Of a stretch of DNA of 64,000 nt, positions 8,401 to 46,659 are shown one piece after another (within the stretch, counting starts at the first letter, position 1; each line of letters opens with the position of its first letter). The DNA lies in NCBI RefSeq assembly GCF_011397635.1, contig NC_064769.1, positions 41,144,533 to 41,208,532 of the forward strand. Reading direction: 5' to 3'. The translations under genes and the position numbers were made by a program. The DNA is from Epinephelus fuscoguttatus (taxonomy: Eukaryota > Chordata > Actinopteri > Perciformes > Serranidae). The notes beneath the pieces are model-generated. The model saw nothing but the letters and a program-made list of their open reading frames with translations, was not told the origin of the DNA and did no database searches.

Positions 8401-11400
8401 GGTCTTACGGCTTTTTTGACCAAGTTTGAGTACGATGTGGTCAACTTTGTAGGAGATATTCATCAAAGTCTAAAACATGACATTTCCTGTTGCCAGTAGG
8501 GGGCGCTATATTTATCTCTAATTATTGACATGTAGATGTGTTCAGGGCGGGACTGTCATCAATTCTGTGAAGTTTGGGCAAGATTAGACCATGTAAGCCA
8601 GAGTTATAAACTACTTCCTGTTGCATAGTGACATATGCAAGTTTAACGCCATCCCACGGTCACATGGTTTGATGAAAACTCAAGCTTGTTAGTTATAACT
8701 ATTCTTCTTCAAGGTCTTTCAGTGGGACAGACCAAGGTTTGAAGTCGATCGGATGAAATCTCTAGGACGAGTTCGTTCATTTAGGACCCCTGGAAATGGC
8801 CAAAAATGCACCAAAATTGCACAGTAAATTCAAAATGGCCGACTTCCTGTTGGGTTTAGAGCATGCCTCCAAGAGGCTTTTTATGTAAGTTTCACACTCC
8901 TTGGTTAAACCAGCTTCGGGGGCTGTTTTGTTGAAATTTTGTGGGTGGCGCTACTGAGCCATTTTTTGGAACTGAAGGGTGAGACCCTTAAAATATGAAA
9001 TTTTTCACCGGTTCTGATGTATCTGCAGTTTCATGAAATTTATTTGTAAGAAGAAGAAGAAGAAGAAGAATTCCTTGCATTTCAATAGGGTCCACCCTAA
9101 ATATAAATATAAGAAAGAAAGACCTTCTATTCTGTCAGGACATTATTTGCTGAACTAACTACCATCTAAGTTTAGTACCCGAATAGCTGAAGGGATAAAA
9201 GATTTAGAGTAGCCATTAGTCTTGCTCAGAGGCACAAGGTATCGACGACCAGAAGGCAACAGTGAAAACTCTTGAGACAGGACATGGAGACATTGATTAA
9301 TAATGCTCTTCCTCTTCTCAACCATCTGATTCTCCCAGGGGGACAGACAGACAGACAGAAGGACAGAGGGACAGACAGAAGGACAGAGGGACAGACAGAC
9401 GGACAGAAGGGCAGACAGACAGACAGACAGACAGAAGGACAGAGGGACAGGAGGACAGAGGGACAGAAGAACAGAGGGACAGACAGAAGGGCAGACAGAC
9501 AGACAGAAGGACAGGAGAACAGAGGGACAGACAGGGGGACAGGAGGACAGGAGAACAGAGGGACAGACAGGAGGACAGGAGAACAGAGGGACAGACAGGG
9601 GGACAGGAGGACAGAGGGACAGGAGAACAGAGGGACAGACAGGAGGACAGGAGAACAGAGGGACAGACAGAAGGACAGGAGAACAGAGGGACAGACAGGG
9701 GGACAGAGGGACAGGAGGACAGAGGAACAGACAGGGGGACTGGAGGACAGAGGGACAGACAGGGGGACAGGAGAACAGAGGGACAGACAGGAGGACAGAG
9801 GGACAGGAGGACAGAGGGACAGACAGGGGGACTGGAGGACAGAGGGACAGACAGGAGAACAGAGGGACAGACAGGGGGACTGGAGGACAGAAGGACAGAC
9901 AGGGGGACAGGAAGACAGAGGGACAGACAGGCAGACAGACAGAAGGGCAGAGAGACAGACAGAAGGAGAGAGGGATAGACAGAAGGACAGACAGACAGAG
10001 GGACAGACAGGGGGACAGGAGGACAGAGGGACAGGAGAACAGAGAGACAGACAGGGGGACAGGAGGACAGAGGGACAGACAGGAGGACAGAGGGACAGAC
10101 AGGGGGACAGGAGGACAGAAGGACAGACAGGGGGACAGGAAGACAGAGGGACAGACAGGCAGACAGACAGAAGGGCAGAGAGACAGACAGAAGGAGAGAG
10201 GGATAGACAGAAGGACAGACAGACAGAGGGACAGACAGGGGGACAGGAGGACAGAGGGACAGGAGAACAGAGAGACAGACAGGGGGACAGGAGGACAGAA
10301 GGACAGACAGGGGGACAGGAAGACAGAGGGACAGACAGGGGGACAGACAGAAGGGCAGAGAGACAGACAGAAGGACAGAGGGATAGACAGAAGGACAGAC
10401 AGACAGAGGGACAGACAGGGGGACAGGAGGACAGAGGGACAGGAGAACAGAGAGACAGACAGGGGGACAGGAAGACAGAGGGACAGACAGGCAGACAGAC
10501 AGAAGGGCAGAGAGACAGACAGAAGGACAGAGGGATAGACAGAAGGACAGACAGACAGAGGGACAGACAGGGGGACAGGAGGACAGAGGGACAGGAGAAC
10601 AGAGGGACAGACAGGAGGACAGAGGGACAGGAGAACAGAGGGACAGACAGGGGGACAGGAGGACAGAGGGACAGACAGGGGGACAGGAGGACAGAGGGAC
10701 AGGAGAACAGAGGGACAGACAGGAGGACAGAGGCACAGGAGAACAGAGGGACAGACAGGGGGACAGGAGGACAGAGGGACAGAGGCAATGCAGGTATTTT
10801 GGAGCAAGCCTTAACTCTGCTCTGAAGGCTGTTCTTATCCTTAACAGAGAGAATATTAAAGCATCAGATAAAAGAAAAAGTTCAAAGACTTTCAATGAAA
10901 GAACAATAAAAACAACTCAAGATTTTCCCATTGACATTAAAGGAATTCAACTTCCTCAGCAGGTAAATCCTCTGCTGACCTTTCTTGACAATGGACTCTG
11001 TGTTCATATTGAACTTCAGTTTACAATCAGACACAGCACCCAGGTGTTTGTAAGACACCACAATCTGAACATTTCCACCATGAATGACACTGACCTGATG
11101 ATCACTGTGAAACCTAAAGTCAATTATCATGTCATTGGTTTTAGAAACATTTAAATCGAGCTAACTGCCATCTCACCATTTCACAAAATCCTGTAATGCA
11201 GGACCATGATCACTGTCAGAGCGCTGCAGTAAAGATAAGAGGACAGTGTCATCAGAAAGCTTCACCAGATGCCTGTTGACTTGAGAAGATCTGCAGCTGT
11301 CAGTATACAGAATAAATAATAAATAAGAGAGGTGACAACACACAACCTTGAGGAGAGCCGGTGGTAAAAATGGACATGTTAACCATTTGTCCATTGACAA

Positions 11401-14400: not shown

Positions 14401-15706
14401 AGCAGCTGATCATAGGGGAAGAGGAAAACCTCTCACAGTGGGCGGGGGAGGTGTCTGTGATGTCCAATGTGACATAACGTCATTTGTGTTTTCACTCTAT
14501 ATATGCTTCCTTTAGGTAACATCATTAGGAATCACTCCATGATGACCATCAAATTCTGCTACAGAGACTGGATCACTTAATTGGCCTAAAAGGTTCTGCA
14601 CTGAGCTGGTTTAAATCTTATTTATCTGATCGTTTTCAGTTTGTTGACGTTCATAATGAATCATCCTTACGTACTAAAGTTTGTTTTGGAGTTCCGTAAG
14701 GTTCTGTGCTCGGACCAATCCTATTTACTCTATATATGCTTCCTTTTGGTAAAATCATTAGAAATCAGTCTATAAATTTCCATTGTTATGCGGATGATAC
14801 TCAGTTGTATTTATCAATGAAGCCAGAAGAAAGTAATCAATTAACTAAACTCCATAATTGCCTTAAAGACATAAAAACCTGGATGAGCACCAATTTCCTG
14901 ATGTTAAATTCAGACAAAACTGAAGTTATTGTTCTTGGCCCCAAACAACTCAGAGACTCTTTATCTGATGACATAGTTTCTCTAGATGGCATTGCTCTGG
15001 CCTCTAGCACTACCGTAAGAAACCTCGGAGTAATATTTGATCAAGATTTGTCTTTTAATTCTCATTTAAAACAAACCTCACGGACTGCATTTTTTCATCT
15101 GCATAATATTGCGAAAATTAGGCCTATCCTGACCCGAAAAGATGCAGAAAAATTGGTCCACGCTTTTGTTACCTCAAGGCTGGATTACTGTAACTCTCTA
15201 TTATCAGGTAGCTCTAGTAAGTCCTTAAAAACTCTCCAGCTAATTCAGAATGCAGCAGCACGTGTACTAACAGGAACTAAGAAACGCGATCATATCTCTC
15301 CTGTTTTAGCTTCTCTGCACTGGCTCCCTGTAAAATCCAGAATTGAATTTAAAATCCTACTGTTAACTTATAAAGCTCTAAATGGTCAAGCTCCGTCATA
15401 TCTTAGAGAGCTCATAGTGCCATATTATCCCACCAGAACACTGCGCTCTGAGAACGTGGTGGTCCCTAAAGTCTCCAAAAGTAGATCAGGAGCCAGAGCC
15501 TTCAGCTATCAGGCTCCTCTCCTGTGGAATCATCTTCCTGTTATGGTCCGGGAGGCAGACACCGTCTCCACATTTAAGACTAGACTTAAGACTTTCCTCT
15601 TTGATAAAGCTTATAGTTAGGGCTGGCTCAGGCTTGCCCTGTACCAGCCCCTAGTTAGGCTGACTTAGGCCTAGTCTGCCGGAGGACCCCCTATAATACA
15701 CCGGGC

Positions 15707-15749
<43 letters not shown>

Positions 15750-17619
15750 TCCTATTACTGCATCTTGCTAACTCGGCCATTCTGGATGTCACTAACTCGG
15801 CTTCTTCTCCGGAGCCTTTGTGCTCCACTGTCTCTCAGATTAACTCATATCACAGTGGTGCCTGGACAGCGTGATGTGTGTGGTTGTGCTGCTGCCGTGG
15901 TCCTGCCAGATGCCTCCTGCTGCTGCTGCCATCATTAGTCATTAGTCATACTTCTACTGTTATTATACACAAATGACTATTGTCACACATGTATACTGCC
16001 AGATATTAATATATACACTGAACAAAAATAGAAATGCAACACTTTTGTTTTTGCTCCCATTTTTCATGAGCTGAACTCAAAGATCTAAAACATTTTCTAT
16101 ATACACAAAAAAACATTTCCTCACAAATATTGTTCACAAATCTGTCTAAATCTGTATTTACAGATTTTGAACAGGTGTGCCTTAGGCTGGCAGAAAACCA
16201 GTCAGTATCTGGTGTGACCACCATTTGCCTCACGCAGTGCAACACATCTCCTTCCCATAGAGCTGATCAGTTTGTTGATCGTGGCCTGTGGAATGTTGGT
16301 CCACTCCTCTTCAATGGCTGTGTGAAGTTGCTGGATATTGGCAGGAACTGGAACACGCTGTCCTATACGCTGATCCAGAGCATCCCAAACATGCTCAATG
16401 GGTGACATGTCCGGTGAGTATGCTGGCCATGCAAGAACTGGGATGTTTTCAGCTTCTAGGAATTGTGTACAGATCCTTGCAACATGGGGCCGTGCATTAT
16501 CATGCTGCAACATGAGGTGATGGTCGTGGATGAATGGCACAACAATGGGCCTCAGGATCTCTTCACGATATCTCTGTGCATTCAAAATGCCATCAATAAA
16601 ATGCACCTGTGTTCGCTGTCCATAACATACGCCTGCCCATACCATAACTCCACCGCCACCATGGACCACTCGATCCACAACACTGACATCAGCAAACCGC
16701 CCCCCCACACGACGTCTCACACGCTGTCTGCCATCTGTCCTGAACAGTGAAAACCAGGATTCATCCGTGAAGAGAACACCTCTCCAACGTGCCAGACACC
16801 ATCGAATGTGAGCATTTGCCCACTCAAGTCGGTTATGACGACGACCTGCAGTCAGGTCGAGACCCCGATGAGGACAACGAGCATGCAGATGAGCTTCCCT
16901 GAGACGGTTTCTGACAGTTTGTGCAGAAATTCTCTGGTTATGCAAACCGATTGTTGCAGCAGCTGTCCGGATGGCTGGTCTCAGACGATCTTGGAGGTGA
17001 ACATGCTGGATGTGGAGGTCCTGGGCTGGTGTGGTTACACGTGGTCTGTGGTTGTGAGGCCGGTTGGATGTACTGCCAAATTGTCTGAAACGCCTTTGGA
17101 GGCAGCTTATGGTAGAGAAATGAACATTCAATTCACGGACAACAGCTCTGGTGGACATTCCTGCAGTCAGCATGCCAATTGCACGCTCCCTCAAAACTTG
17201 CGACATCTGTGGCATTGTGCTGTGCGATAAAACTGAACATTTCAGAGTGGCCTTTTATTGTGGCCAGCCTAAGGCACACCTGTGCAATATTCACGCTGTC
17301 TAATCAGCATCTTGACATGCCACACCTGTGAGGTGGGATGGATTATCTCGGCAAAGGAGAAGTGCTCACTAACACAGATTTAGACAGATTTGTGAACAAT
17401 ATTTGTGAGAAATGGTCTTTTGTGTGTATAGAAAATGTTTTAGATCTTTGAGTTCAGCTCACAAAAAATGGGAGCAAAAACAAAAGTGTTGCGTTTATAT
17501 TTTTGTTCAGTGTACTTTCAACATATTGTACCACAGTAACCAGAATTATAACTATAATATTATTATTTTCATTAACGTTGTTGTAAGCTACTGTCATTAC
17601 CGTCTGTCCTGCATCTCTT

Positions 17620-20600: not shown

Positions 20601-23600
20601 GGTATTCGGCCAAGCGTTTAATATTATTCGGCTTCGGCCACAAATTTTCATTTCGGTGCATCCCTATAAAACAGAGTAAAACACACATCAAATTAAAACA
20701 CACAAATTAAAGAAACATGTCAAAATAAATGTCAAAATAACAGAACAGAACACAAAAAACAAAAACAAAGTTTTCACCTTTCCAAACTTGTGTTTGAGCG
20801 CCAGGCCGGCGTCCCTGAACGCCGTGATGATGTCAGATCTGAAGTCCACGCTGAATATGCCAATATCGACGTCACGGCTGTACGAGATAACGCTGCACTG
20901 CCTGAACCAGCCTGCAGGGGGCGACAGACAGCCACAGAAGACATTTACTGACCAGGTTAACAACACGTTAAACACAGAGCAGACCAGAATCACAGACCAC
21001 CACAGACCATTGCCACAGACTACAGACCACCACAGACCATAATCACAGACCACCAAAGACCATAATCACTGACCACCAAAGACTACTACTACAGACCACC
21101 ACAGATCATAATCACAGACCACCACAGACCATTACTACAGACTACAGACCACCAAAGACCATTACTACAGACCACCACATCATTACTACAGACTACAGAC
21201 CACCAAAGACCATAATCACAGACAACCAAAGACCATAATCACTGACCACCAAAGACCATCACTACAGACTACAGACCACCCAAGACCATAATCACAGACC
21301 ACCAAAGACCATTACTACAGACCACCACATCATTACTACAGACTACAGACCACCAAAGACCATAATCACAGACCACCAAAGACCATTACTACAGACCACC
21401 ACATCATTACTACAGACTACAGACCACCCAAGACCATAATCACAGACCACCAAAGACCATTACTACAGACCACCACATCATTACTACAGACTACAGACCA
21501 CCAAAGACCATAATCACAGACAACCAAAGACCATAATAACTGACCACCAAAGACCATTACTACAGACCACCACATATCATTACTATAGACTACAGACCAC
21601 CAAAGACCATTACTACAGACTACATACCACCAAAGACCATAATCACAGACCACCAAAGACCATAATCACAGACCACCAAAGACCATAATCACTGACCATC
21701 AAAGACCATTACTACAGACACCACAGACCATTACTACAGACTAAAGACCACCAAAGACCATAATCGCAGACCACCAAAGACCATTACTACAAACTACAGA
21801 CCACCACAGACCATTACTACAGACTACAGACCACCAAAGACCATAATCACAGACCACCACAGACCATTACTACAGACTACAGACCACCAAAGACCATAAT
21901 CACAGACCACCAAAGACCATAATAACTGACCACCAAAGACTATTACGACAGACCACCACATATCATTACTACAGACTACAGACCACCAAAGACCATAATC
22001 ACAGACCACCAGACCATTACTACAGACTACAGACCACCAAAGACCATAATCACAGACCACCAAAGACCATTACTACAGACACCACAGACCATTACTACAG
22101 ACTAAAGACCACCAAAGACCATAATCACAGACCACCAAAGACCATAATCACTGACCATCAAAGACCATAATCACTGACCACCAAAGACCATTACTACAGA
22201 CACCACAGACCATTACTACAGACTGAAATTACAGAGCACTACAGGCCACCACAGACCATTACCAGACTACAGGCCACCACAGACCATTACCAGACTACAG
22301 ACCACCACAGACCATAATAACTGACCACCAAAGACCATTACTACAGGCCACCACAGACCATTACCACAGACCATTACTACAGACCACCACAGACCATAAC
22401 CACAGACCACCACAGACCATTACTACAGACCATAATTACAGACCCGCACAACAGACCATAACCACAGACCACCACAGACCATAACTACAGACCATGTCTA
22501 CAGACCATTACAGACCATAACTACAGACCACTACAAACCATAACTACAGACCTAACTAAAGATAACTACAGACCATGTCTACAGACCATAACTACAGATA
22601 ACTACAGACCATGTCTACAGACCATTACTGTCTATTACTACCGACCACTACATACCATCACTGCAGACCACTGTAGACCATGACTATAGATCATTACACA
22701 CCATAACTACAGACCATTACAGACCGTATCTACAGACCACTACAGACCATAACTACAGACCACTGCAGACCATTACTACAGATCACTATAGTCCATCGCT
22801 ACAGACCACTACAAACCATAACTACAAACCATAACTACAGACCATTACTACAGACCGTAACTAAAGATCACTACAGACCATTACTACAAACCATGTCTAC
22901 AGACCATTACAGACCATAACTACAGACCACTACAAACCATAACTACAGACCTAACTAAAGATAACTACAGACCATGTCTACAGACCATAACTACAGATAA
23001 CTACAGACCATGTCTACAGACCATTACTGTCTATTACTACCGCCCACGACATACCATCACTGCAGACCACTGTAGACCATGACTATAGATCATTACACAC
23101 CATAACTACAGACCATTACAGACCGTATCTACAGACCACTACAGACCATAACTACAGACCACTGCAGACCATTACTACAGATCACTATAGTCCATCGCTA
23201 CAGACCACTACAAACCATAACTACAAACCATAACTACAGACCATTACTACAGACCGTAACTAAAGATCACTACAGACCATTACTACAAACCATGTCTACA
23301 GATCATCACAGACCATAACTACAGACCACTGCAGACCATTACAGACCATAACTACAGACCACTACAGTCCATCACTACCGACCACTACATACCATCACTG
23401 CAGACCACTGTAGACCATGACTACAGACCATTACAGACCATAACTACAGACCATTACAGACCATATCTACAGACCACTAAAGATTATAACTACAGACCAT
23501 AACTACAGACCATGACTACAGACCATTACAGACCATGACTACAGACCACTATAGTCCATCACTACAGACCACTACTACAGACTGTAACTACAGACCACTA

Positions 23601-25821
23601 CAGATCACTACTACAGACCATAACTACAGACCACCGCAGACCATAACTACAGACTATAACTACAAACTACTGCAGACCACTACAGACCATACCTACAGAC
23701 CACTGTAGACCAATGTAGACCATAGAAGCAGACCATTAAAGGGATAGTGCACCCAAAAATGAAAATTCAGCCATTATCTTCTCACCCATATACCAATGGA
23801 GGCTCAGGCGAAGTTTTAGAGTCCAACTCCACCTAATGGAGGCTGACGGCGCCCCAGATTCAACCGTCCAAAAACACAAAATTGAGACCACATAATATCT
23901 CCATACTGCTCGTCGTAGTGATCCAAGTGTCCTGAAGCCCAGGCATAAAAAGTTGTTTGGAAAAACGTCAGTTGAACTGTTTTTAGCCTCTCTGTAGCCT
24001 GTAGCTCTGACTGCCTCTCTGTGCACCGTATGTGTGTGTGCTTGCGTGAGACATGGGCACCGCGTTCATGTGTGTTCACATGCTTGCGTTGTTCTCGGGG
24101 TGCACAGAGAAGCAGTTAGAGCTGCAAGCTACAATGAGGCTAAAAAGCAGCAGTATGGAGATATTTTGTGGTTTCAATCATGTGTTTTTGGACGTTTGAA
24201 TCTGGGGCGCCGTCAGCCTCCATTAGGTGGAGTTGTGTTGCTACCTCCTCTTCCCTGGGATCTTCGCAAGTGATGTGAGGACTCTAAAACTTTACCTGGG
24301 CCTCCCTCGGCATATGGGTGAGTAGATAATGGATGAATTTTCATTTTTGGGTGCACTATCCCTTTAAAGAGTTTTTAGAAATAAATATCATTTTATCACC
24401 ACATCAGTCCGGTTTTAGAAAACAACACAGCACGACAACAGCTGCTATTAAGGTGGTCAATGACATTATCAAGGCACTGGACTGCAAAAAATATTGTGCA
24501 GCTCTTTTCATCAATTTGTCAAAGGCCTTTGAATAGTAGATCATGTTACCCTGGCAGATAGACTCTGTAAAATTGGCCTATCTAAGCATGCTGTACACTG
24601 GTTTGCTAATTATTTGTCAGGCAGAACACATAGTGTTCAGTTTGCTGGGTCTTCCTCTGCATTCCTCCCAGTGTTAAAAGGTGTTCCTCAGGGTTCCATA
24701 CTGGGGCCATTGTTGTTTTCTATATATGTAAATAATCTCTGTGACAATCAAATGCTGCTTATCATTTTTATGCAGATGATACCGTCATCTATTGTTCATC
24801 CCCTTCAGTTGTTAAAGCTGTGTAATACCTGCAGTCTGATCCACTTAACTCAACCTAAGCTGGTGTTAAATGCAGAAAAATCCAAAATTATGCGTTTTTT
24901 CAAATGGCAAAGACTTAACATCTGATCTTCCAAAGATCTTGACTACTCGAGGGATTGAAATTGAAATTGTTACAATGTTCAAGTATTCAGGTATTATCAC
25001 TGATCAGAACTTGTCTTTCAAAGCACATATTGAAAACCTTGTCGCCAAGCTGAAGGTTAAATTGGTCTTCTTCTTTAGAAATAAATCCAACTTCTCCCTT
25101 CAGGCAAGAAGACACTTGATATGTGCAACTTTTTTACCTCTGCTGGATTATGGTGATCTGCTTTTCATGAATGCAGCTGACCAGTATCTAAAGAAGTAAG
25201 ACACTGCGTACCATTGTTCTTTGCGCTTATTTACTGGTTGCGGAAATCGCATACACCATTGTACTCTGTATGCCACTGCTAAATGGCTGTCTTTGTATGT
25301 CCACAGGCTCTCACATTGGTTGGTTTATATATTAATCTATTCTTGGCCTTGTTCCCTCTTATCTTTCTACATACATGTGCAGAAACCAAAATCAATATGG
25401 CCTTCGCTCTCATAATATTCTTCAAATGCTGGTTCCAAGGGTGAGAACAGTACTCGGCAAAAAAGCTTTTAAATATGCTGCTCATTTGTCTTGGAATAAG
25501 CTTCAGAAGGATATGAAATTGGCAGAGCTGATCACTGTGGGGGAGTTAAAGTCGATTTTAAAGGATGGAGAAATTTGCTCTTTAAGTCAATGTGACTATT
25601 CCTAAATTATTTCAGAAATTGTACTCAAATCATATTTATTCTTGTCCTGACCTTGTATCTCGTGTTGCATACTGTGTTTTTTTTTAATCATTTGTTATGT
25701 GTGAGACAGTTGTATGTGTCTGTTTGCCTTGTAACTTGTAACAATGTTGTATGCTGCCCTCTTGGCCAGGTCACTCTTGAAAGATTTTTGATCTTAATGA
25801 GGCTTTTACCTGGTTAAATAA

Positions 25822-26304: not shown

Positions 26305-29300
26305 TCATATATATATTCTATATATATGATAAAACAAAGTAAGCCACTTACATCTTTTCACCAGCATATTAAGTTAACATGTTATACCGTAAAATTAGCA
26401 GGTAAGCATGTTGTTATCTAAAGTTAGCATGTAAGCATGTTGTCATACTCTCAAGTTAGCATGTTTTTATACTATCAAGTTAGAGTGTTATATGTTGTTT
26501 TACGTTAGGATATGCATGTTACATGCTGTTAGCCTGTTACATTAGCATGTTATATGCTATTGTACTGTAAAGTTATCATGTTGTTATCCTGTAGCACGTT
26601 ACATGTTGTAAGACTGTAAAGTTAACATGTTATATGTTATTTTACTGCATGTTAGCATGTTATATGTGGTCATTCTGTGAATTCAGCATGTTGTTGTCCT
26701 GTTACGTTAGCATGTTACCTAGACAGGTGCCGCTGCTGAGCCAGAAGGGGATGTTGAGGTGAGCGAGTGTCTGAGCAGCCAAATGAAGCAATGACTTCAC
26801 TTTTCTCCGAAAATCGACAGCGTCCGCTGATGTGTCGTCAGGGTAGAGCTACGTTCACACACAACGGACAGAGATGCATGTATGAGATGTTTTTCTACAT
26901 TTCGTGGACTTGTTAACATGTTATAATAAAAATAATTAAAAACATTATAATAAGCATCATTGAAGGCTCTGTAAGTCTTCCTAAGCTTGAAAAGTTTTTT
27001 TCACATACAGCACACATCTCCTCACGATCCGCTAGCTACATGTCCTCTGAATATGCTGTGATAAAGTCTGGTCTCTGTAGGCAGCCCAGGCTCCGCAAAT
27101 GGCAACAAAAACACTTCTGTTTACGTTCAACAATGTTATCAAGCACAACGGAGCTTGCTCACCTTTTAGCCTCATTGTAGCCTGTAGCTCTAACTGCCTC
27201 TCTGGGCACCGTGTTCACGTGTGTGCTTGCTTTCACTGGTCTCGCGCTGGCTGGTTGGTGCAGCCTGGACCACAATGTCTTTGCTGCCATGTGCGGAGCC
27301 TGGGCTGCCTACAGAGACCAGACTTTTTCCACAGCATATTCAGAGGACATGTAGCTAGCGGATTGTGAGGAGATGTTTGCTGTATGTGAAAAAAACTTTT
27401 CAAACTTAAGAAGACTTAGAGAGCCTTTAACACTTTATAATCAACATTGTTAACATGTTATAAGAAACACTGTTAACATGTTACAATAAACATCATTGAC
27501 ACTTAATAATAATCATCATTAACACCTTATAATCAGCACTGTTTACACATTAGAATAAACATCATTAACACCTTTTAATACACATCATTAACATGTTATA
27601 ATAAACATCATTAAAGGGACACTGTGTAACATTTTCAGTTTATTGGCAAAAATCAATGTCTGCATACATAAATATGTCATCATTGGTGTACTATTACCTC
27701 CACCAATAATCTGACTTATTCTCGTGTGAGGTTGAGCCACTTGTCAGTTGTCAAAAGACAAGACGTGATTGGTTTGTTTGGATTTACACCCACCCCAACA
27801 GTCCTACGTGGTAAACACAGCCAGCATGGTGAGGAGGGGGGTTTGTCAACTTGCGCCACGTGTGTTTGTGTAGGAGCCTGAATGAATACTCTATGAAGTA
27901 TCGGATGACATGGTTTCATCAATGTTATCATAGCTTTTTGGTACACAGCGGCTACCGTTAACATATTATAATAAACATTGTTAACACGTTATAATAAACA
28001 TCGTTAACAATTTATAGAAGTTATTTTACCGTTCAGACGTCTTTCTATAACCGATCCTTCCTCAGAATCACTTACTGCACCTTTAACACACGTGTTTCCT
28101 TTACACCCTTTCATAATAAAAGCCCGGTGCTCTGTCTGACCTGCAGGAAATTGCGGGCGTCACGGTACCGGCACTCCAGGAAGCGAGCGTGTCGCTGCTC
28201 TGACAGAAAACGTGAAACGTTCCGTGGGATTCGAATGTCGAGGCCGTCCAGGACCGTCAGAACCAGCTCTGGCCTGCAGGGGGCAACCACACAAAACAAA
28301 CATGTTAAATCCATCAGCTGTTTCATTAACGACACTTGATGACACGGAACATAAAGTTTCACCTGTCGTAGGCGCCAGCATGGCGTCCAAAGTCCAGACG
28401 TTTGAAGGGAGCGAAGCTTCGGTCCATGTTGGCTTTGAGGCGTAACGCTCCGTGCCACAGGTAGTTCCCACTGCGCTCGTACAGGAACACCACCTGAGAC
28501 AAAATATATTTACTGACACCACCTGAGACTGAATATATTTACTAGATAGAGGTATTAAGAGGTGCAAAGGTAGTGTCCCAGGCTAAACAGGGACAGTGGT
28601 TGAATTGGGAAAGTGTAGAGAAGAGGAAGCTTAGTTGGAGGGACCTGTGGAGTATGGAGGAGAATCGTATTAGATTCCTGGTAGGGGCTACATACGATGT
28701 GTTACCAACCCCCCAGAACCTAGAACTGTGGGTAAATGAGGACCCATCATGCCCATTGTGTTCACGTACCACAACCTTAAAGCATATTTTGTCAGGCTGT
28801 AAAGTTAGCTTGTCACAAGGCCGATATACATGGCGACATAATCAGGTGTTGAAATGTTTAGCTGCAGGCATTGAAGGGAAACGAAGACAGGTGAATTCAG
28901 AAGGTGTTAAGGATAGGAGTTTAGCAATTCAGTTTGTCCGTGAGGGAGAGAAACACAGAAGAGATAAGTTAGTGAGGAGGCAAGGGTGTGGCCGCCTAGA
29001 AGGTGCTTGTGATTGGGAAATGCAAGCAGATTTAGGGGGAAAGCTTGTTGTTCCCCAGGAAATAGTTTGTACCAGGCAGAGGCCTGACTTAGTGTTGTGG
29101 TCAGTGAGTCAACGGATAGTTTATTTCATTGAGCTGACAGTTCCTTGGGAAGACTCAGTGAAAGAAGCCTAAGAAAGAAAAAAGCTTAGACATGCAGACT
29201 TAGGAGCAGAAGCTGAGCAGCGAGGATGGAAGACTAGGATTTGTCCAGTGGAAGTGGGGTGTAGGGGATTCATAGCAAGATCAGCTGTCTCGCTCCTGGG

Positions 29301-32300
29301 AGTTTGAGGAAGACAGTGAAGGAAATGTCAGATGAAGCAGGTAGAGCAAGCCAATGGATCTGGGTGAGAAGAAATAATGTCAGTTGGGAGCCAGCAGGGG
29401 CAACTACTAAGCAGGGTACATAACTCCTTGAGATCAGGTGGAGAGATCCACTTCCTCTCAGGAGGAAATCCAGGAAGAGGAAGGTTATTTCTTGTGCTTA
29501 CGGCCATACCACCCTGAATACGCCCGATCTCGTCCGATCTCGGAAGCTAAGCAGGGTCGGACTGGGCCAGTACTTGGATGGGAGACCTCCTGGGAATACC
29601 CGGTGCTGTTAGCTTGTGGGGCGGCTGTGGCTCAGAGGTAGAGCCACGGCAATCGTCCACCAATTGAAAGATCAGTGGTTTGATCCCGGGCTCCTCCAGG
29701 CTGCATGTTGAAACATCCTTAAGCAAGATACTGAACCCCAAATTGCTCCCGATGGCTGTTCCATCGGTGTGTGAGTGTGGTAAAACTGAGTAGCAGGTGG
29801 CACCTCGTATGGTAGCCTCGGCCACCAGTGTATGAATGTGTGTGTGAATGGGTGAACGTGACTCGTAGTGTAAAAAGTGCTTTGAGTGGTCACTAGATGA
29901 CTAGAAAGGCGCTATACAAATGCAGGTCCATTTACCATTTAAGTGTGGGAGTGGCCTATTTGACTCCCTTTGTTTGAGACCATGCGGCAAGGTGAGTGTG
30001 TTTGCTGATCCTGTGACACCACCTGAGACTGAAAATATTTACTGACACCACCTGAGACTGAATATATTTACTGACACCACCTGAGACTGAATACTGACAC
30101 CACCTGAGACTGAAAATATTTACTGACACCACCTGAGACTGAATATATTTACTGACAGGGTGTGACATACGTGCTGACGTATTGCGGTAAGCGAGTTGTG
30201 TCATTTCCGGTGTTTCTGTGACAGTGTCTCTGTACTGCTCTGGTGAATTCCACTAGCCTGCTTTCTCACCTCAGTTGCTTTAACGTCTACTTCAAGTCAT
30301 AACCCACACTAGTTCTGTTTAAGCACTTATAGCTCTCCTCCTTTCTACGACTTTCTCGCTAATCTCTTAGCTGTTGTTTGCACGCTCTTAGCCTTGTTAG
30401 CTACATTAGCTTAGCCATGACTTCTCCTTCTCCTGCTCTCTGTTGCTCGGTGTGTCAAATGTTCAGTTATGCCTCTGCCTCCTTTAGCGACAGTGGTAAT
30501 TGTAACAAGTGTAGCTTATTTGCTGCGTTGGAGGCGAGGCTTAGTGAATTAGAAGCGCAGCTCCGCACCATGGAAAACCATTCAGTAGCTGCGGTAGTTA
30601 GCCAGCCCCTGTAGCGGTGCGGAGCCACATAGCCTAGCCTTAGCCTCTGCTAACTGTCCTCCGGTAACTCCTGCTCAGCCGGGAGGCTGGGTTACGGATT
30701 CGCCAGAAGCACAGCTCCAAGCCGAAGCCCACGGCTCACCACCAGCCTGTTCACGTTTCCAACCGCTTTTCCCACTCAGCGACACACCCGCTGAGGATAA
30801 AACTCTGGTTATTGGCAGCTCTATTCTGAGAAACGTGAAGTTAGCAACACCAGCGGCCATAGTCAAATGTATCCCTGGGGCCAGAGCGGGCGACATTGAA
30901 TAAAAATTTAAAGCTGCTGGCTAAAGCTAAACGTAGATTCAGTAAGATTGTTATTCACGTCGGCGTCAATGACACCCGGTTACGCCAATCGGAGGTCACT
31001 AAAATTAATATTGCTTCGGTGTGTGAATACGCAAAAATGATGTCGGACTCCGTAGTTTTCTCTGGACCCCTCCCAAATCTGACCAGTGATGACATGTTTA
31101 GCCGCATGTCATCATTTAATCGCTGGCTGTCCAGGTGGTGTCCAGCAAACGATGTGGATTTTGTTAATAATTGGCAAACTTTCTGGGAAAACCTGGTCTT
31201 ATTAGGAGAGACGGCATTCATCCCACTTTGGATGGAGCTGCTCTCATTTCTAGAAACCTGGCAAACTTTATTAGTAATTTAAATCCCTGACAACCCAGAG
31301 TTGAGACCAGGACTCAGAGTCGCAGTCCTAAACGCCTCTCTGAGCTTCTAGTTCAGTTACCCAGCCATAGTTTTAATAGTTTTATACAAACGGTGTCTGT
31401 CCCCCGACTACCTAAATTATTTAAATCTAAAATTAAACAAAGAGGAGTTGTGCAAAACAACCTCATAAAAATTAAAACCTCTTCTGTGACAGAAAGACAA
31501 AACAGGAGAATTAAATGCGGACTGTTAAATATCAGGTCTCTATCGTATAAAGCAGAGTTAGTAAAGCGAATTAATATCAGATAATCATATTGATTTACTC
31601 AGTCTCACTGAAACCTGGCTGTGTCCAGATGAATATGTCAGTCTAAATGAGTCCACTCCTCCCAGTCATAATAATACCCACATTCCTCGAGGCAGCGGCC
31701 GAGGAGGGGGAGTTGCAGCCATTTTTAACTCTAGTCTGTTAATCAGCCCTAAACCTAAACTAGATTATAATTCATTTGAAAGCCTCGTTCTTCGTCTTTT
31801 ACATCCGACCTGGAAAACCTCGCAGCCACTTTTATTTGTTATAGCGTACCGTGCTCCTGGCCCGTATTCTGAATTTTTATCTGAATTCTCAGAGTTTTTA
31901 TCCAGTTTAGTTCTTAAATCAGATAAAGTTATTATTGTAGGCGATTTTAACATTCATGTCGACGTTGATAATGACTCCCTGGCTACCGCGTTTATCTCAT
32001 TATTAGACTCCATTGGCTTCAGTCAGGGTGTACATGAACCTACTCATTATTTTAACCATACCCTCGATCTAGTTCTGACGTATGGAATTGAAATTGATAA
32101 CCTAAAAGTCTTTCCACAGAATCCCTCGCTATCGGATCATTATCTGATTACTTTTGATTTCTTTTTACTCGATTACATGCCACTCAGCAACAGTTACTAT
32201 ACTAGATGTTTATCAGATAGTGCTGTCGCAAAACTTAAGGAAAAGATTACTCCATCGTTAAATTCAATACCAATACCTTCAGTAACAGAGGTTTCCTGTG

Positions 32301-34851
32301 CCGACTTTAACCTCTCCCGAATTGATCATTTTGTTGATAGCACCGTAGGCTCGCTACGAACAACGCTCGACTCTGTAGCTCCTCTTAAAAAGAAGTTAAA
32401 AAAGCAAAGAAAGTTCGCTCCTTGGTATAACTCTCAAACCCGTAAGTTAAAACAAATATCGCGAAAATTTGAAAGGAATTGGCGATTAACCAAACTGGAA
32501 GAAACTTATAAGAGGGGTCTCCGCAATGCCAGAGCAAACTATTACTCAGCTCTAATAGAAGACAATAAGAACAACCCCAGGTTTCTTTTCAGCACTGTAG
32601 CCAGGCTGACTGAGAGTCAAAGCTCTATTGAGCCTTGTATTCCCTTAGCCCTTAGCAGTAATGATTTTATGAGCTTTTTTAATGACAAAATTCTAACTAT
32701 TAGAGGCAAAATTCATGACCTCCTGCCCTCAGATAGTACCTATCTAACCTCAAACACAGCTGTAAAATCTAATATATATTTAGATTGCTTCTCCCCAATT
32801 TCTCTTCAAGAATTGACTGCAGTGATTTCTTCATCCAAATCATCAACGTGTCTCTTAGACCCCATCCCAACTAGGCTACTTAAGGAGGTCTTTCCTTTAG
32901 TTAACACTCATATATTAGATATGATCAATATATCCTTATTAACAGGCTATGTACCACAGTCTTTTAAGATAGCTGTAATTAAACCTCTACTAAAAAAGCC
33001 CACCCTGGATCCAGAGGTGTTAGCCAACTATAGACCAATATCTAATCTTCCCTTTATGTCAAAGATCCTTGAGAAAGTAGTCGCAGACCAGCTGTGTGAT
33101 TTTCTCCAGGATAATAATTTATTTGAGGAATTTCAGTCAGGATTTAGAGTGCATCATAGCACTGAGACAGCTCTAGTTAAAATTACAAATGACCTTCTGA
33201 TTGCTTCAGACAAAGGACTCGTCTCTGTACTTGTTTTATTAGATCTTAGTGCGGCGTTTGACACAATTGACCATCAAATTCTGCTGCAGAGACTGGATCA
33301 CTTAATTGGCCTAAAAGGTTCTGCACTGAGCTGGTTTAAATCTTATTTATCTGATCGTTTTCAATTTGTTGACGTTCGCAATGAACCATCCTTACGTACT
33401 AAAGTTTGTTTTGGAGTTCCGCAAGGTTCTGTGCTCGGACCAATCCTGTTTACTCTATATATGCTTCCTTTAGGTAACATCATTAGAAATCACTCTATAA
33501 ATTTCCATTGTTATGCAGATGATACACAGTTGTATTTATCGATGAAGCCAGAAGAAAGTAATCAATTAACTAAACTCCATAACTGCCTTAAAGACATAAA
33601 AACTTGGATGAACACCGATTTCCTGATGTTAAATTCAGACAAAACTGAAGTTATTGTTCTTGGCCCCAAACAACTCAGAGACTCTTTATCTGATGACATA
33701 GTTTCTCTAGATGGCATTGCTCTGGCCCCTGCCACTACCATAAGAAACCTCGGAGTAACATTTGATCAAGATTTGTCTTTTAATTCTCATTTAAAGCAAA
33801 CCTCACGGACTGCATTTTTTCATCTGCGTAATATTGCGAAAATTAGGCCTATCCTGACCCAAAAGATGCAGAAAAATTGGTCCACGCTTTTGTTACCTCA
33901 AGGCTGGATTACTGTAACTCTCTATTATCAGGTAGCTCTAGTAAGTCCTTAAAAACTCTCCAGCTAATTCAGAATGCAGCAGCACGTGTACTAACAGGAA
34001 CTAAGAAACGCGATCATATCTCTCCTGTTTTAGCTTCTCTGCACTGGCTCCCTGTAAAATCCAGAATTGAATTTAAAATCCTACTGTTAACTTATAAAGC
34101 TCTAAATGGTCAAGCTCCGTCATATCTTAGAGAGCTCATAGTGCCATATTATCCCACCAGAACACTGCGCTCTGAGAACGCAGGGTTACTCGTGGTCCCT
34201 AAAGTCTCCAAAAGTAGATCAGGAGCCAGAGCCTTCAGCTATCAGGCTCCTCTCCTGTGGAATCATCTTCCTGTTACGGTCCGGGATGCAGACACCGTCT
34301 CCACATTTAAGACTAGACTTAAGACTTTCCTCTTTGATAAAGCTTATAGTTAGGGCTGGCTCAGGCTTGTCCTGTACCAGCCCTTAGTTAGGCTGACTTA
34401 GGCCTAGTCTGCCGGAGGACCCCTCTATAGTACACCGGGCCCCTTCTCTCCTTCTCTCTCTCTCTCTCTCTCTCTCTCGTATCCTATTACTGCATCTAGC
34501 TAACCCGGCCATTCTGGATGTCACTAACTCGGCTTCTTCTCCGGAGCCTGTGTGATCCACTGTCTCTCAGATTAACTCATATCACAGCGGTGCCTGGACA
34601 GCGTGACGTGTGTGGTTGTGCTGCTGCCGTGGTCCTGCCAGATGCCTCCTGCTGCTGCTGCCATCATTAGTCATTAGTCATACTTCTACTGTTATTATAC
34701 ACATATGATTATTGTCACACATGTATACTGCCAGGTATTAATACATACTTTCAACATATTGTACCGCAGTAACCAGAACCATAACTATAATATTATTACT
34801 TTCATTAATGTTGTTGTAAGCTACTGTCATTACCTGCATATCTCTCTCTCG

Positions 34852-34886
<35 letters not shown>

Positions 34887-37800
34887 CCTGTGTCATATGG
34901 ATTACTGTTAATTTATCATGCTGATCTGTTCTGTACGACATCTATTGCACGTCTGTCCGTCCTGGAAGAGGGATCCCTCCTCAGTTGCTCTTCCTGAGGT
35001 TTCTACCGTTTTTTCCCCGTTAAAGGGTTTTTTGGGGAGTTTTTCCTGATCAGCTGTGAGGGTCATAAGGACAGAGGGATGTCGTATGCTGTAAAGCCCT
35101 GTGAGGCAAATTGTGATTTGTGATATTGGGCTTTATAAATAAAATTGAGTGATTGAAATTGAAATTGATTGACACCACCTGAGACTGAAAATATTTACTG
35201 ACACCACCTGAGACTGAAAATATTTACTGACACCACCTGAGACTGAATATATTGACTAACACCACCTGACACTGAATATATTTACTGACACCACCTGAGA
35301 CTAAATATATTGACTGACACCACCTGAGACTAAATATTGACACCACCTGAGACTAAATATATTTACTGACACCACCTGAGACAAAACATATTTACTGACA
35401 CCACCTGAGACTGAATATATTTACTGACACCACCTGAGACTAAATATATTTACTGACACCACCTGAGACAAAACATATTTACTGACACCACCTGAGACTG
35501 AATATATTTACTGACACCACCTGAAACTAAATACTGACACCACCTGAGACTGAATATATTTACTGACACCACCTGAGACGAAATATATTGACTGACACCA
35601 CCTGAGACTGAATATATTTACTGACACCACCTGAGACTGAATATATTGACTGACACCACCTGAAACTGGATATATTTACTGACACCACCTGAGACTAAAT
35701 ACTGACACCACCTGAGACGAAATATATTTACTGACACCACCTGAGACTGAATATATTTACTGACACCACCTGAGACAAAACATATTTACTGACACCACCT
35801 GAGACTGAATATAATGACTGACACCACCTGAGACTAAATACTGACACCACCTGAGACTAAATATATTTACTGACACCACCTGAGACAAAACATATTTACT
35901 GACACCACCTGAGACTGAATATATTTACTGACACCACCTGAGACTAAATATATTTACTGACACCACCTGAGACAAAACATATTTACTGACACCACCTGAG
36001 ACTGAATATATTTACTGACACCACCTGAAACTAAATACTGACACCACCTGAGACTGAATATATTTACTGACACCACCTGAGACGAAATATATTGACTGAC
36101 ACCACCTGAGACTGAATATATTGATTGACACCACCTGAGACTGAATATATTTACTGACACCACCTGAGACTGAATATATTGACTGACACCACCTGAAACT
36201 GGATATATTTACTGACACCACCTGAGACTAAATACTGACACCACCTGAGACGAAATATATTTACTGACACCACCTGAGACTAAATACTGACACCACCTGA
36301 GACTGAATATATTTACTGACACCACCTGAGACAAAACATATTTACTGACACCACCTGAGACTGAATATAATGACTGACACCACCTGAGACTAAATACTGA
36401 CACCACCTGAGACTAAATATATTTACTGACACCACCTGAGACAAAACATATTTACTGACACCACCTGAGACTGAATATATTTACTGACACCACCTGAGAC
36501 TAAATATATTTACTGACACCACCTGAGACTGAATATATTTACTGACACCACCTGAGACTGAATATACTGACTGACACCACCTGAGACTAAATACTGACAC
36601 CACCTGAGACTAAATATATTTACTGACACCACCTGAGACTGAATATACTGACTGACACCACCTGAGACTAAATACTGACACCACCTGAGACTAAACATAT
36701 TTACTGACACCACCTGAGACTGAATATATTTACTGACACCACCTGAGACTGAATATACTGACTGACACCACCTGAGACTAAATACTGACACCACCTGAGA
36801 CTAAATATATTTACTGACACCACCTGAGACAAAACATATTTACTGACACCACCTGAGACTAAATATATTTACTGACACCACCTGAAACTGGATATATTTA
36901 CTGACACCACCTGAGACTAAATACTGACACCACCTGAGACGAAATATATTTACTGACACCACCTGAGACTAAATACTGACACCACCTGAGACTGAATATA
37001 TTTACTGACACCACCTGAGACAAAACATATTTACTGACACCACCTGAGACTGAATATAATGACTGACACCACCTGAGACTAAATACTGACACCACCTGAG
37101 ACTAAATACTGACACCACCTGAGACTAAATATATTTACTGACACCACCTGAGACAAAACATATTTACTGACACCACCTGAGACTGAATATATTTACTGAC
37201 ACCACCTGAGACTAAATATATTTACTGACACCACCTGAGACAAAACATATTTACTGACACCACCTGAGACTGAATATATTTACTGACACCACCTGGAACA
37301 ATCATATTCAATATGGCCGCCCACTTAGTGTTTGTTGCTGTACTGGATTCTATGTGGTTACTGTGGCTGCGGTCGATTAGTGCTTTTTGCTTAGGAAGGT
37401 TCCTAACTGAGTGAAATGACCCGGCAGCATCTCAGTGGCAGCCATGATAAGAGCTGGTCGAATTCTCAAAATTTTAAGGAAAGGTGCTTCAATGCTTCCT
37501 TTCCAATCTCCTTTAGCATGGGGTACACTGGACCATCCTTTACAAAAGGAAAGGAGATGATTCCGTCCCACAAGTCCTAACGGCAGCAATATTTAAAGCG
37601 ACCAAGCGACGCACCATTCACAAACTCAAATGATTAGGAAAGAAAAAGATCAACATTATGATGCCATAACTTGTTCATATGCTGTATGTTTTCAACTTTC
37701 AACATTATGTTAAACTCAGATGCGAACTATGAACGTTTCGCTACTATTGGTGTACCCTCCGTCCACAGCTTTGTTTAACTTGTTTTATAACAGGATAAAC

Positions 37801-38013
37801 AAATATACAATGCATTATTTTAATTTTCCAATTTTTGTGTGAATGAGAAAAAACGGAAATCCACGTGCTTTTCCCGTTTTCAGCTTCAAAAACCAAAACC
37901 AGAATCCTACTTGTTTTTCGCCTTTATTGTTATATCTATATTATCTGCCCCTACTGCACCTCAAAACATTGGCATCAGCTATGCTTATGGCCTAGACAGA
38001 TAGACAGATAGAC

Positions 38014-38053
<40 letters not shown>

Positions 38054-41000
38054 TCAGGAGTATTATCTAGACCTGCTCTATGTGTAAAGTGCCCTGAGAT
38101 GACTTTTGTTGTGATTTGGTGCTATATAAATAAAATTGAATTAAAAATAATAGATAGATAATCAATGAAGTAACGTTGCTGTGCTTCGTGCGTAAATGTG
38201 CAGCTTCCCACTTTGTATTCCCCTGTACAGTGTTTCCCTGCAGAGCTACAGCGGAAGCATCATAACAAAAAATACAAAAGACTGTAACGTTAAAAGATAT
38301 CTGCTTGAGGTTATTAAATACCTGCAGCGATTCTTTCGCCGTCTTGTCCACGTTTATATATCCTGCATGAATCAACATGATAAGAACGTACGGGGCGCAA
38401 TATCTAAGATGCGCTTTTTGTAGTCCATCTTCAGAACACTGTAGTTTCACCACAGCAGACCCAAGTCAATAACATCCGCCGTTGCATCATTACGTAGCCC
38501 AGTGTAAGTGCGGTCGGATTCTCTCAGCACCACAGTTGTCTTTTCCTGAGTCCTTATGAATTCTCCTTCACATCTTCCCTTGACCTCGTGACATTTTCCA
38601 TTGAGGTCAAGGAAAAGTGGTTAGGAAAAGACAATAGGAGGGACTTTTCGACCGCAGCCTCTATGTTTTTTGGTGTTGTGGCCCCACCCACCTGAATGAT
38701 GTAACCATGGAGGCGGAGCAGGAAGTGCAGAGGGATCTCCTCTCCTGATAGGGTATCCAGACTGGCTAATCGTGGGTCCTCTCCTCGCAGCTCCAGCAGC
38801 TCGAAGCCTTTCTGCTCTGCAGCCAATAGGAAGCCGGGCTAATGGACAAAAAACTAAATATTAACCTGTAGCTAATCATAAGACTTTTATTTATAAATAT
38901 TATATTTTTTATTTTAGCGTTAGCTCCACACAACAGATAACCACTGTTATATTTTAATGTTACATGTTGTCCTGAACGCATCACTCACTTCATACTTCCA
39001 CAGATTCGCATGCAATGCGAATGATGTGACTGGCCGGCCGGTACACAGGAAGCTGCAGTGTGGCTCATGCACCAGCCGGTCATGCTGCCGCAAAGCATCG
39101 TGGGAGAGCAGCGTCAGTGCGGCGGTGTCAGCGAGGAACACTGGCAGCCTGTAGCGCCGAGCTAATGCTAGAAACTGCTTCACCGTCTGCTACAGAAACC
39201 AGACAGAGAAGGTTACCATGGCAATGGCTACCAGAAAAGGGAAGGAAACAAGGTGTTGGACATGTTAACCCTTCAAAATAAAACAAGATACAACACCACT
39301 GAGAGAACTGCTAGCAGAGATGCTAACAGGCTAACAATGAGGCTAACATTGAGGTTGACAGGCTAACAGTGAAGCTAACAGGTATGCTAACAGTGATGCT
39401 AACAGCGAGGGTGATGCTAACAGTGAAGCTAACAGCGAGGCTCACAGTGAAACTCACAGGTATGCCAACAGTGAGGGTGATGTGGAGCTAACAGCAATGG
39501 TAGCAGGGATGCTAACAGCAATGGTAGCAGGGTTGCTAACAGTGGAGCTGACAGCAATGGTAGCAGGGATGCTAACAGTGGAGCTAACAGCAATGGCAGC
39601 AGGGTTGCTAACAGTGGAGCTGACAGCAATGGTAGCAGGGATGCTAACAGTGGAGCTAACAGCAATGGCATCATGGTTGCTAACAGTGGAGCTGACAGTA
39701 ATGGCAGCAGGGATGCTAACAGTGGAGCTGACAGCAATGGTAGCAGGGATGCTAACAGTGAGGCTAACTGCAGTGCGGCTGTGAACGTTGGCGCTGACTC
39801 ACCCATTGTATGTCGCTGGCAGTCAGGTGACCTGTTCTGCTCAGGATGTGAGGGCCAGGCTGCAGGAGAAAGGAATGATGGGAAATGTGAGGAAAAATAA
39901 AAAGCATCAGCTTCCTGGGTGTTTCTCAAAGTCAGAATGTGGCAAGTCCATGCAAGAGTCCGGACTTCCCAAGAAAGGGAGGACAGGAGTACAGTCATTT
40001 CTGCTTTTGGAACAGCAGCGAACTTGATGATGTCACCACCTCCGCTCACCTTGGCTGTTGTACTGTGTTGTATACATGCATTTATAATAAAACAATATAA
40101 ACACAGCCCAGCCTTGCGGCTTTTCATTGTCATTGTAAGAAATTAATATGTACATGTTTTTAATGTTTCAACACATATAACTGACACACAAAAACATATA
40201 AAGAGCCAAAATATTTTCATAACATGTCTTATAAAACCTTTTCCCCGCAGCTGGCTTCTAATTATAATCAAAAGTCAAGTGCGGGGGAAAGTTTGTGGAG
40301 AGTTGGTTGTTATTGTGATCGTGAGCATTGGCGAGATGGAAATCAAAAATCAATAATTGACATGGATCGGAGAAGGCGTCTTGGTACAGTTATTGCAGCA
40401 GGATTGCTGTACCTGCAGGCTGAGGAGGAGGCTGCAGCTGAGGAAGCAGATCCCAGAAGGACAGCTGAGGATGAGGATGAGACGTGCTATGCTTGCGTGT
40501 CTTTATTGTTTGGTATGTTTGTCCAGTTGTGGACAAAGTACCAGGAAAAGTAGTAATATCACAACAAAGAACAAAAACTCAGTCACAAGTCAAAGTGCTG
40601 CAAATCTGACTTGAGTAAAAGTATCTGGGTATTGTCAGCAAAATGGAGGACTACTTCAAATGAAGAGTTCAAAGTACTCATGATGCAGAGTGACCCAATT
40701 TCAAGTGTTGTAATCATCATATACATGAATACGTATTGAGTATTAATCGATCAATTTACACGTAGGCTTCATGTAAGCAGCACTTAAATGTTGTCATGGT
40801 AGAACTCATGTTAACAGCTGTCACTGGTGCACTAGTCTGATCTATAACAACACACATCAACTTGTAAATATGAAACAACAACATATAAAACAAACTATCT
40901 GAACAGTAATTATAGCTATCAAATAAATGTAGCTTGAGTAGAATGCACAGTATTTCCCTCTCGGTATAAAGTAGCACAAAATGGAAATACCCAAAGTACA

Positions 41001-45030: not shown

Positions 45031-46659
45031 CAGTACAGGCCAAAAGTTTGGACACACCTTCTCATTCAATGCGTTTTCTTTATTTTCATGACTATTTACA
45101 TTGTAGATTCTCACTGAAGGCATCAAAACTATGAATGAACACATGTGGAGTTATGTACTTAACAAAAAAAGGTGAAATAACTGAAAACATGTTTTATATT
45201 CTAGTTTCTTCAAAATAGCCACCCTTTGTTCTGATTACTGCTTTGCACACTCTTGGCATTCTCTCCATGAGCTTCAAGAGGTAGTCACCTGAAATGGTTT
45301 CCACTTCACAGGTGTGCCTTATCAGGGTTAATTAGTGGAATTTCTTGCTTTATCAATGGGGTTGGGACCATCAGTTGTGTTGTGCAGAAGTCAGGTTAAT
45401 ACACAGCCGACAGCCCTATTGGACAACTGTTAAAATTCATATTATGGCAAGAACCAATCAGCTAACTAAAGAAAAACCAGTGGCCATCATTACTTTAAGA
45501 AATGAAGGTCAGTCAGTCCGGAAAATTGCAAAAACTTTAAATGTGTCCCCAAGTGGAGTCGCAAAAACCATCAAGCGCTACAACGAAACTGGCACACATG
45601 AGGACCGACCCAGGAAAGGAAGACCAAGAGTCACCTCTGCTTCTGAGGATAAGTTCATCCGAGTCACCAGCCTCAGAAATCGCAAGTTAACAGCAGCTCA
45701 GCTCAGAGACCAGATGAATGCCACACAGAGTTCTAGCAGCAGACCCATCTCTAGAACAACTGTTAAGAGGAGACTGCGCGAATCAGGCCTTCATGGTCAA
45801 ATAGCTGCTAGGAAACCACTGCTAAGATGAGTCAACAAGCAGAAGAGATTTGTTTGGGCCAAGAAACACAAGGAATGGACATTAGACCAGTGGAAATCTG
45901 TGCTTTGGTCTGATGAGTCCAAATTTGAGATCTTTGGTTCCAACCGCCGTGTCTTTGTGAGACGAGAGAAAAGGTGAACGGATGGATTCCACATGCCTGG
46001 TTCCCACTGTGAAGCATGGAGGAGGAGGTGTGATGGTGTGGGAGTGTTTTGCTGGTGACACTGTTGGGATTTATTCAAAATTGAAGGCACACTGAACCAG
46101 CATGGCTACCACAGCATCCTGCAGCGACATGCCATCCCATCCGGTTTGCGTTTAGTTGGACGATCATTTATTTTTCAACAGGACAATGACCCCAAACACA
46201 CCTCCAGGCTGTGTAAGGGCTATTTGACCAAGAAGGAGAGTGATGGAGTGCTGCGGCAGATGACCTGGCCTCCACAGTCACCGGACCTGAACCCAATGGA
46301 GATGGTTTGGGGTGAGCTGGACCGCAGAGTGAAGGCAAAGGGGCCAACAAGTGCTAAACACCTCTGGGAACTCCTTCAAGACTGTTGGAAAACCATTTCA
46401 GGTGACTACCTCTTGAAGCTCATGGAGAGAATGCCAAGAGTGTGCAAAGCAGTAATCAGAGCAAAGGGTGGCTATTTTGAAGAAACTAGAATATAAAACA
46501 TGTTTTCAGTTATTTCACCTTTTTTTGTTAAGTACATAACTCCACATGTGTTCATTCATAGTTTTGATGCCTTCAGTGAGAATCTACAATGTAAATAGTC
46601 ATGAAAATAAAGAAAACGCATTGAATGAGATGGTGTGTCCAAACTTTTGGCCTGTACTG
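45031..46659 (+). mobile_element. Tc1/mariner element, DD38E (Intruder-like), inactive
   Basis: Ends CAGTACAGGCCAAAAGTTTG and its complement CCAAACTTTTGGCCTGTACTG, flanked by TA at 45029-45030 and 46660-46661. Long terminal repeats (about 200 bp with TTCATGACTATTTACATTG and AACATGTTTTATATTCTAG). The transposase gene is broken. Confidence 0.95.
45444..46496 (+). pseudogene. DD38E Tc1-like transposase, broken
   Basis: MARTNQLTKEKPVAIITL, a paired-type helix-turn-helix (GQSVRKIAKTLNVSPSGVA), then an in-frame TGA at 45828. The frame resumes (KRFVWAKKHKEWTLDQW, VLWSDESKFEIFG), is lost near 45976, and picks up at 46146 (FIFQQDNDPKHTSRLCKGYL, WPPQSPDLNPMEMVWGELD). I count 38 residues between the second Asp (QQD) and the Glu (PME), i.e. 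DD38E as in the Intruder family rather than DD34E. Not functional. Confidence 0.9.

Follow-up and report, generated by a model that had tools for sequence, protein, structure and literature searches.

The 64,000-nucleotide stretch of Epinephelus fuscoguttatus DNA analysed here (contig NC_064769.1, positions 41,144,533 to 41,208,532 of the forward strand; hereafter the window) carries on its minus strand the gene fktn (fukutin), and intron 4 of this gene contains a long tandem array whose units are near copies of the splice acceptor of the following exon, exon 5. Altogether 84 cores of the form AGGTGGTG are found on the minus strand in fktn intron 4 and its acceptor, from 37292 to 28493. The evidence supports a once unbroken array whose last unit consists of the real acceptor together with the 7 bases that open exon 5. 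The array is probably a 'mirage' minisatellite, that is, one grown from the fktn exon 5 boundary itself.

The exon 5 acceptor and the intron 4 array

The fktn exons extend from 42715 down to 5283 and were located by tblastn, with a human fukutin protein as the query. The joined translation of exons 4-8 (225 amino acids) matches the Pfam family FKTN_N (2e-83, residues 2-155), and the alignment is collinear across the exon 4/5 junction, 154 residues corresponding to 154 profile positions. A small coding exon expected from the human protein between 42600 and 39189 was not located there; the exon numbers are those of a preliminary description of this DNA, and the name exon 5 assumes that one such exon exists. 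The parts of the gene and of the array that concern this analysis are the following.

38692-38838, minus strand: fktn exon 4, 147 nt, phase 0, protein end ...HGYIIQ (tblastn, edge reading and translation)
28494-38691, minus strand: fktn intron 4, 10,198 bp, phase 0, donor CAG/GTGGGT, acceptor CAG/GTGGTG
35170-37294, minus strand: array block A, 77 cores in units of 29 or 23 bp, 5' edge CAGGTGGTGT after unique sequence
30158-35169, plus strand: retrotransposon of the long interspersed nuclear element (LINE) type, inside the array and opposite to fktn, edges uncertain by a few bases
30014-30157, minus strand: array block B, 5 units
28543-30013, plus strand: second insert, 1,471 bp, inside the array between blocks B and C
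28487-28542, minus strand: array block C, the last decoy (exon-like base 28522) and the real acceptor (exon base 28493)
28363-28493, minus strand: fktn coding exon 5, 131 nt, protein end ...DR (tblastn, edges read, translated)

The real exon 5 junction reads ...AGTAAATATATTTTGTCTCAG/GTGGTGTTCCTG on the minus strand. Exon 5 starts at 28493 (CAG/GTGGTGTTC), the 7 bases with which it opens, GTGGTGT, are found again in the units of the array, and a donor, CAG/GTGAAA, directly follows the 131-nt exon. The real unit, TCAGTAAATATATTTTGTCTCAGGTGGTG, occurs once, at exon 5, and is one base from each of three subtypes (C, D and G; 28/29 to the nearest). Compared with the consensus unit, the 29-mer at the real site (-23 to +6) is identical at 27/29 positions, while the best matches outside the array reach 18/29 on the plus strand and 19/29 on the minus strand among 55,113 positions per strand. 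These values, with the 84 cores, bear out the claim of the preliminary description that the exon 5 acceptor has been tandemly amplified into intron 4. The remaining 83 units are decoys lying upstream of the real site in the same intron and on the same strand, as had been described, but the number given there (75-80) was too low. Over positions -7 to +7, 76/83 decoys are identical to the real site; 25/83 show no more than a single difference from it in 29 nt, and the nearest lies 29 nt upstream of it.

The array is about 2.3 kb in total and is made up of three blocks with 77, 5 and 2 cores. Its 83 core spacings comprise 65 of 29 bp, 16 of 23 bp and two that span the inserts. Spacings within the blocks are never above 29 bp, and therefore no core has been lost inside the blocks. 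There are 22 unit types, counting the first unit and the unit cut by an insert. The commonest, TCAGTAAATATATTCAGTCTCAGGTGGTG, is present 18 times, followed by a 23-bp form without six of the bases (12 copies) and by a GTTTTG form and a TTTAG form (11 copies each). The AG/GT splice signal is present in all 84 cores by definition, as AGGTGGTG was used to find them. A block duplication is visible within block A, where two segments are identical at 466/466 aligned bases with two unit-sized gaps (a 408/408 comparison is part of the same alignment and is not counted separately); another pair of segments has 2 mismatches in 295. Such identity is as expected from minisatellite turnover. It reflects either a recent block duplication or, in part, an effect of assembly, and the copy number of the array is therefore provisional. 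At the other end of the intron, the donor junction (38700-38680, minus strand) reads ATTCAG/GTGGGTGG and contains CAGGTGG, which is also found at the acceptor junction and in the units of the array.

Both insertions can be undone. When the flanks in blocks B and C are rejoined a perfect unit results, and the resulting 40-base stretch is found exactly in block A; no target-site duplication was seen at this rejoining. The flanks of the LINE, in blocks A and B, rejoin to exact array sequence in several ways, for which reason it can be delimited only to within a few bases. Since the flanks rejoin to array sequence, the array ran without a break into the real acceptor, its last unit, until the insertions occurred, and this rejoining together with the register of the units agrees with the earlier statement that the genuine site is the last unit. 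The LINE has an open reading frame at 31565-33952 with matches to Pfam RVT_1 (1.3e-36) and Exo_endo_phos (4.3e-10). The second insert contains a full-length sequence resembling 5S ribosomal RNA at 29496-29614 on the plus strand (Rfam RF00001, 106.6 bits) and an open frame of 208 amino acids (28546-29172) that had no Pfam match; these are possibly a 5S-derived short interspersed nuclear element and a LINE remnant. Both insertions can be read as cutting a unit at the same point (TGTCA^GTAAA), although the LINE allows several readings, of which this is one.

The unit could also belong to a satellite or transposon-borne repeat dispersed over many loci, the match to exon 5 then being an accident of insertion. 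This is very unlikely from its distribution in the window: the exact 13-base core GTCTCAGGTGGTG has 77 minus-strand copies, all confined to intron 4 and its acceptor, and none on the plus strand. Moreover, the array enters the exon in register, and the second insert interrupts the array and does not carry it; the LINE can be read likewise. A similar motif, GTGACAGGTGGTG, is found on the plus strand at nine places from 415 to 3117 and agrees with the core at 11/13 positions, a resemblance judged to be one of composition. A search of viral_contigs with a 22-base pattern from the unit gave no matches. A 16-base pattern found 40 stretches in genome_contigs, as single hits in bacterial-titled records, which by our own estimate is about the number expected by chance in 257 Gb.

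Origin of the array and direction of copying

If the array grew from the exon 5 boundary, it would have started from a 29-bp segment made up of the last 22 or so intron bases (an AT tract, a short pyrimidine stretch and CAG) and the first 7 bases of exon 5. A tandem duplication of this segment would have been followed by amplification into the intron, each new unit lengthening the intron while one intact copy stayed at the exon. With exon base +7 as the end of the repeat, the added units would leave the protein as it was. The 6-bp deletion subtype, the duplication of a block of many units, the insertion of the LINE and the second insertion would be later events. Minisatellites may be born from two short direct repeats. 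The sequence CAGGTGGTGT is common to both ends of the array and is weakly consistent with such a start, although any array has some overlap between its ends. The 5' flank of the first core was also considered as a homologue of the unit and was rejected as unproven, its similarity being equalled by 1421/5000 shuffles and by 283/1330 30-mers from the nearby intron.

The direction of copying was approached through the protein. Val-Val is the translation of the shared exon bases, GTGGTG, and when 14 residue pairs of our own choice were placed at this position, Val-Val gave the best score against FKTN_N (262.7 bits), followed by Leu-Val (262.6 bits) and by the twelve other pairs (255.0-261.4 bits). 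The score was 257.7 bits with X-X and 251.3 bits with both residues deleted. The other two frames of the shared bases, giving Gly-Gly and Trp-Cys, scored 255.0 and 257.6 bits. FKTN_N thus prefers residues like Val-Val, and copying from exon to array is therefore favoured over the capture of an array unit by the exon. Judged from this conservation, it would also be the simplest direction.

Capture would mean that an independent minisatellite in intron 4 extended until it reached the exon or was joined to it, its last unit replacing the acceptor and the first exon bases. Such an origin is unlikely, though less so than that of a dispersed repeat. It agrees with the last unit being an ordinary member of the unit network and not its centre, and with the presence of other, unrelated arrays in fktn introns within the window; direction, moreover, is not readable from one genome. 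However, the captured unit would have had to land so that protein length (FKTN_N is collinear), phase 0 and a working AG were all kept, and in the one frame with residues preferred by the family. Further, among 16 fktn exon edges only the exon 5 acceptor is copied elsewhere in the window at 24/29 or more, the best copy for the other 15 being 21/29. This control comprised the edges of the located exons; the positions used for the acceptors of exons 8-10 and the donors of exons 7 and 8 were wrong by one base, with hardly any effect on the comparison. A repeat that takes in the edge of a coding exon is thus rare in the window.

Several observations weigh against growth of the array from the exon 5 boundary. 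The window is rich in repeats, and repeats of such size are not rare in it: 108/300 random 29-mers had a second match in the window of at least 24/29, 66/300 had at least 10 copies and 20/300 at least 75. The suggested direction draws on conservation of the protein and not on the DNA of orthologous fish introns; Val-Val could persist whichever way the bases came, and it leads Leu-Val by only 0.1 bit. Within the unit network the real unit does not take the central place, as its mean distance to the other types is 2.07 and 6/20 types compared are nearer to the rest (type D with 1.43 and type B with 1.52), and type J also forms a bridge to subtype C. The 5' flank of the first core shows no significant likeness to the unit, and the original 5' flank is for this reason unreadable. 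If the exon was copied into the array, an outgroup fish free of the array would have an intron 4 end close to TTTTGTCTCAG/GTGGTGTTC.

Splicing and the decoys

The local sequence hardly separates the real acceptor from the decoys, as compared by pyrimidine counts and AG spacing only. Between -20 and -5 the real site has 9/16 pyrimidines, and the 83 decoys have 9 (42 decoys), 8 (35), 10 (5) or 7 (1). The preliminary description overstated the likeness of the decoys to the real site: most of them are not its equals, because 66/84 units have an extra AG six bases before the core AG. A 19-nt stretch free of AG is shared by 17 units, the real one and 16 others; in the first core it is 31 nt. Folding of the RNA gave nothing notable (z = +0.98 for the region of the real site, z = -1.10 for a stretch of four units).

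Use of a decoy would have consequences for the protein. For 82/83 decoys, read-through with no further splicing would meet a stop within 11 to 94 codons. From the nearest decoy the frame has no stop before exon 5 ends but is shifted, so that its use would give a product with 29 added bases and a stop in exon 6, 58 codons past the junction. Loss of fukutin causes muscular dystrophy in humans.

In vertebrates the two splice sites flanking an exon are recognised together, as a pair. The decoys are presumably ignored in splicing, because an exon with a donor stands behind the last copy only and because most decoys also have the extra AG close upstream. Silent decoys would fit the undisturbed splicing reported for comparable repeats of amphioxus (PMC3087553, PMC3902484). 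With decoys so nearly identical to the real site, nature provides an experiment on which cues other than local sequence guide the spliceosome to an acceptor. There is only a slight probability that the array is instead used stepwise, or that transcripts halted at decoys are destroyed, with array length, which should vary between fish, tuning the amount of fukutin. If so, the array would be a natural copy-number dial made from the gene's own acceptor.

Recursive splicing works at ratchet points, or zero-length exons, and a good donor has A at +4 and G at +5. Each fktn unit has AG/GT as such points do, and the units could form a ladder of zero-length exons, in which case the array would be functional and would control how fast fktn is spliced. 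AG/GTGGTG is present in every unit, splicing of exon 4 (which ends in CAG) to any unit rebuilds CAG/GTGGTG at the junction, and stepwise removal would still yield the right mRNA. However, the weak ratchet point proposed in the preliminary description was overstated, as the units do not combine a strong acceptor with an equally strong donor right behind it. The donor half GTGGTG lacks both A(+4) and G(+5), making it a weak signal and a poor donor beside the true GTGGGT, the sites are 29 or 23 bp apart, and 66/84 units have the upstream AG. Such a ladder is the least probable of the alternatives. Selection on the core was considered from its invariant run of 11 bases (AG/GTGGTGT) and rejected, the run being not clearly beyond chance placing of the 9 variable columns (P = 0.071).

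Comparison with known systems and surrounding repeats

The preliminary description called an intronic minisatellite made from the host exon's own acceptor unusual. This goes too far, as the same phenomenon is known from amphioxus. Duplications of intron-exon boundaries resembling minisatellites are reported there from the globin genes and are named 'mirages' after work on Adh3 (PMC3087553), and TnC and imperfect PGBD5 repeats have been added (PMC3902484). The 3' end of an intron and the 5' part of an exon are duplicated there, with many AG/GT units and reportedly regular splicing, and there is concerted turnover within clusters and length variation between haplotypes (PMC3087553, PMC3902484).

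Like the mirages of BflGb6, BflGb9, Adh3 and TnC, the fktn array is a tandem repeat spanning an exon-intron boundary: its terminal unit holds the real junction and many units keep AG/GT. A homogenised interior with the edge units left out also belongs to the amphioxus type; in the fktn array the interior blocks agree at 466/466 aligned bases, and the flank 5' of the first core has no significant similarity to the unit. In BflGb6 the arrangement, with the 3' end of the intron and the 5' part of exon 2, is the same as in fktn. The copy number is 84 in fktn and 6 and 3 in BflGb6, and the unit is 29 or 23 bp in fktn, compared with 150-160 bp in BflGb6 and 10-72 bp in Adh3. The fktn array further differs from the amphioxus cases described in that its unit contains only 7 exon bases and in its later splitting by a LINE. 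If the origin proposed here is true, the phenomenon extends from amphioxus to a fish gene, with many more copies than in the globin example. No vertebrate case was found among the matches listed in a search of the open literature, most subscription papers being outside its coverage.

Two other kinds of repeat are partly similar. When introns are gained by tandem duplication of an AGGT segment (Rogers model; ATP2A1, 24-bp repeats of fission yeast and potato RdRp), each unit likewise has a potential donor and acceptor (PMC4974935). A new intron is made in this way, whereas the fktn array repeats an existing acceptor inside its own intron. The array does not look like a new intron in former coding sequence, as the exons on either side of it together encode a protein collinear with FKTN_N. 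With ordinary intronic minisatellites the array shares homogeneous short units, a deletion subtype and block duplication; it differs from them in that the unit is homologous to the acceptor and first codons of the host exon.

The region from 20000 to 45000, to which the tandem repeat finder was applied, is full of tandem repeats. A very long array at 20981-23712 (23-bp period among others) ends about 70 bp upstream of the fktn exon near 20911, on its acceptor side; the acceptor of this exon has no match in the window above 19/29. Database searches with the protein gave no matches in the PDB by sequence for a fukutin stretch of 176 amino acids, and 8 pattern matches, none of them confirmed, for exons 5-6 in viral_contigs. 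Long open frames with repetitive translation in several frames at 1-4477, 9155-10900 and 60215-61144 are apparently minisatellites on the kilobase scale. A partial second LINE copy is located at 14700-15620 on the plus strand, its reverse-transcriptase translation being by eye nearly the same as that of the LINE in intron 4. The open frames at 16202-17254 (minus strand) and 45336-46496 (plus strand) resemble transposases of the Tc1/mariner type.

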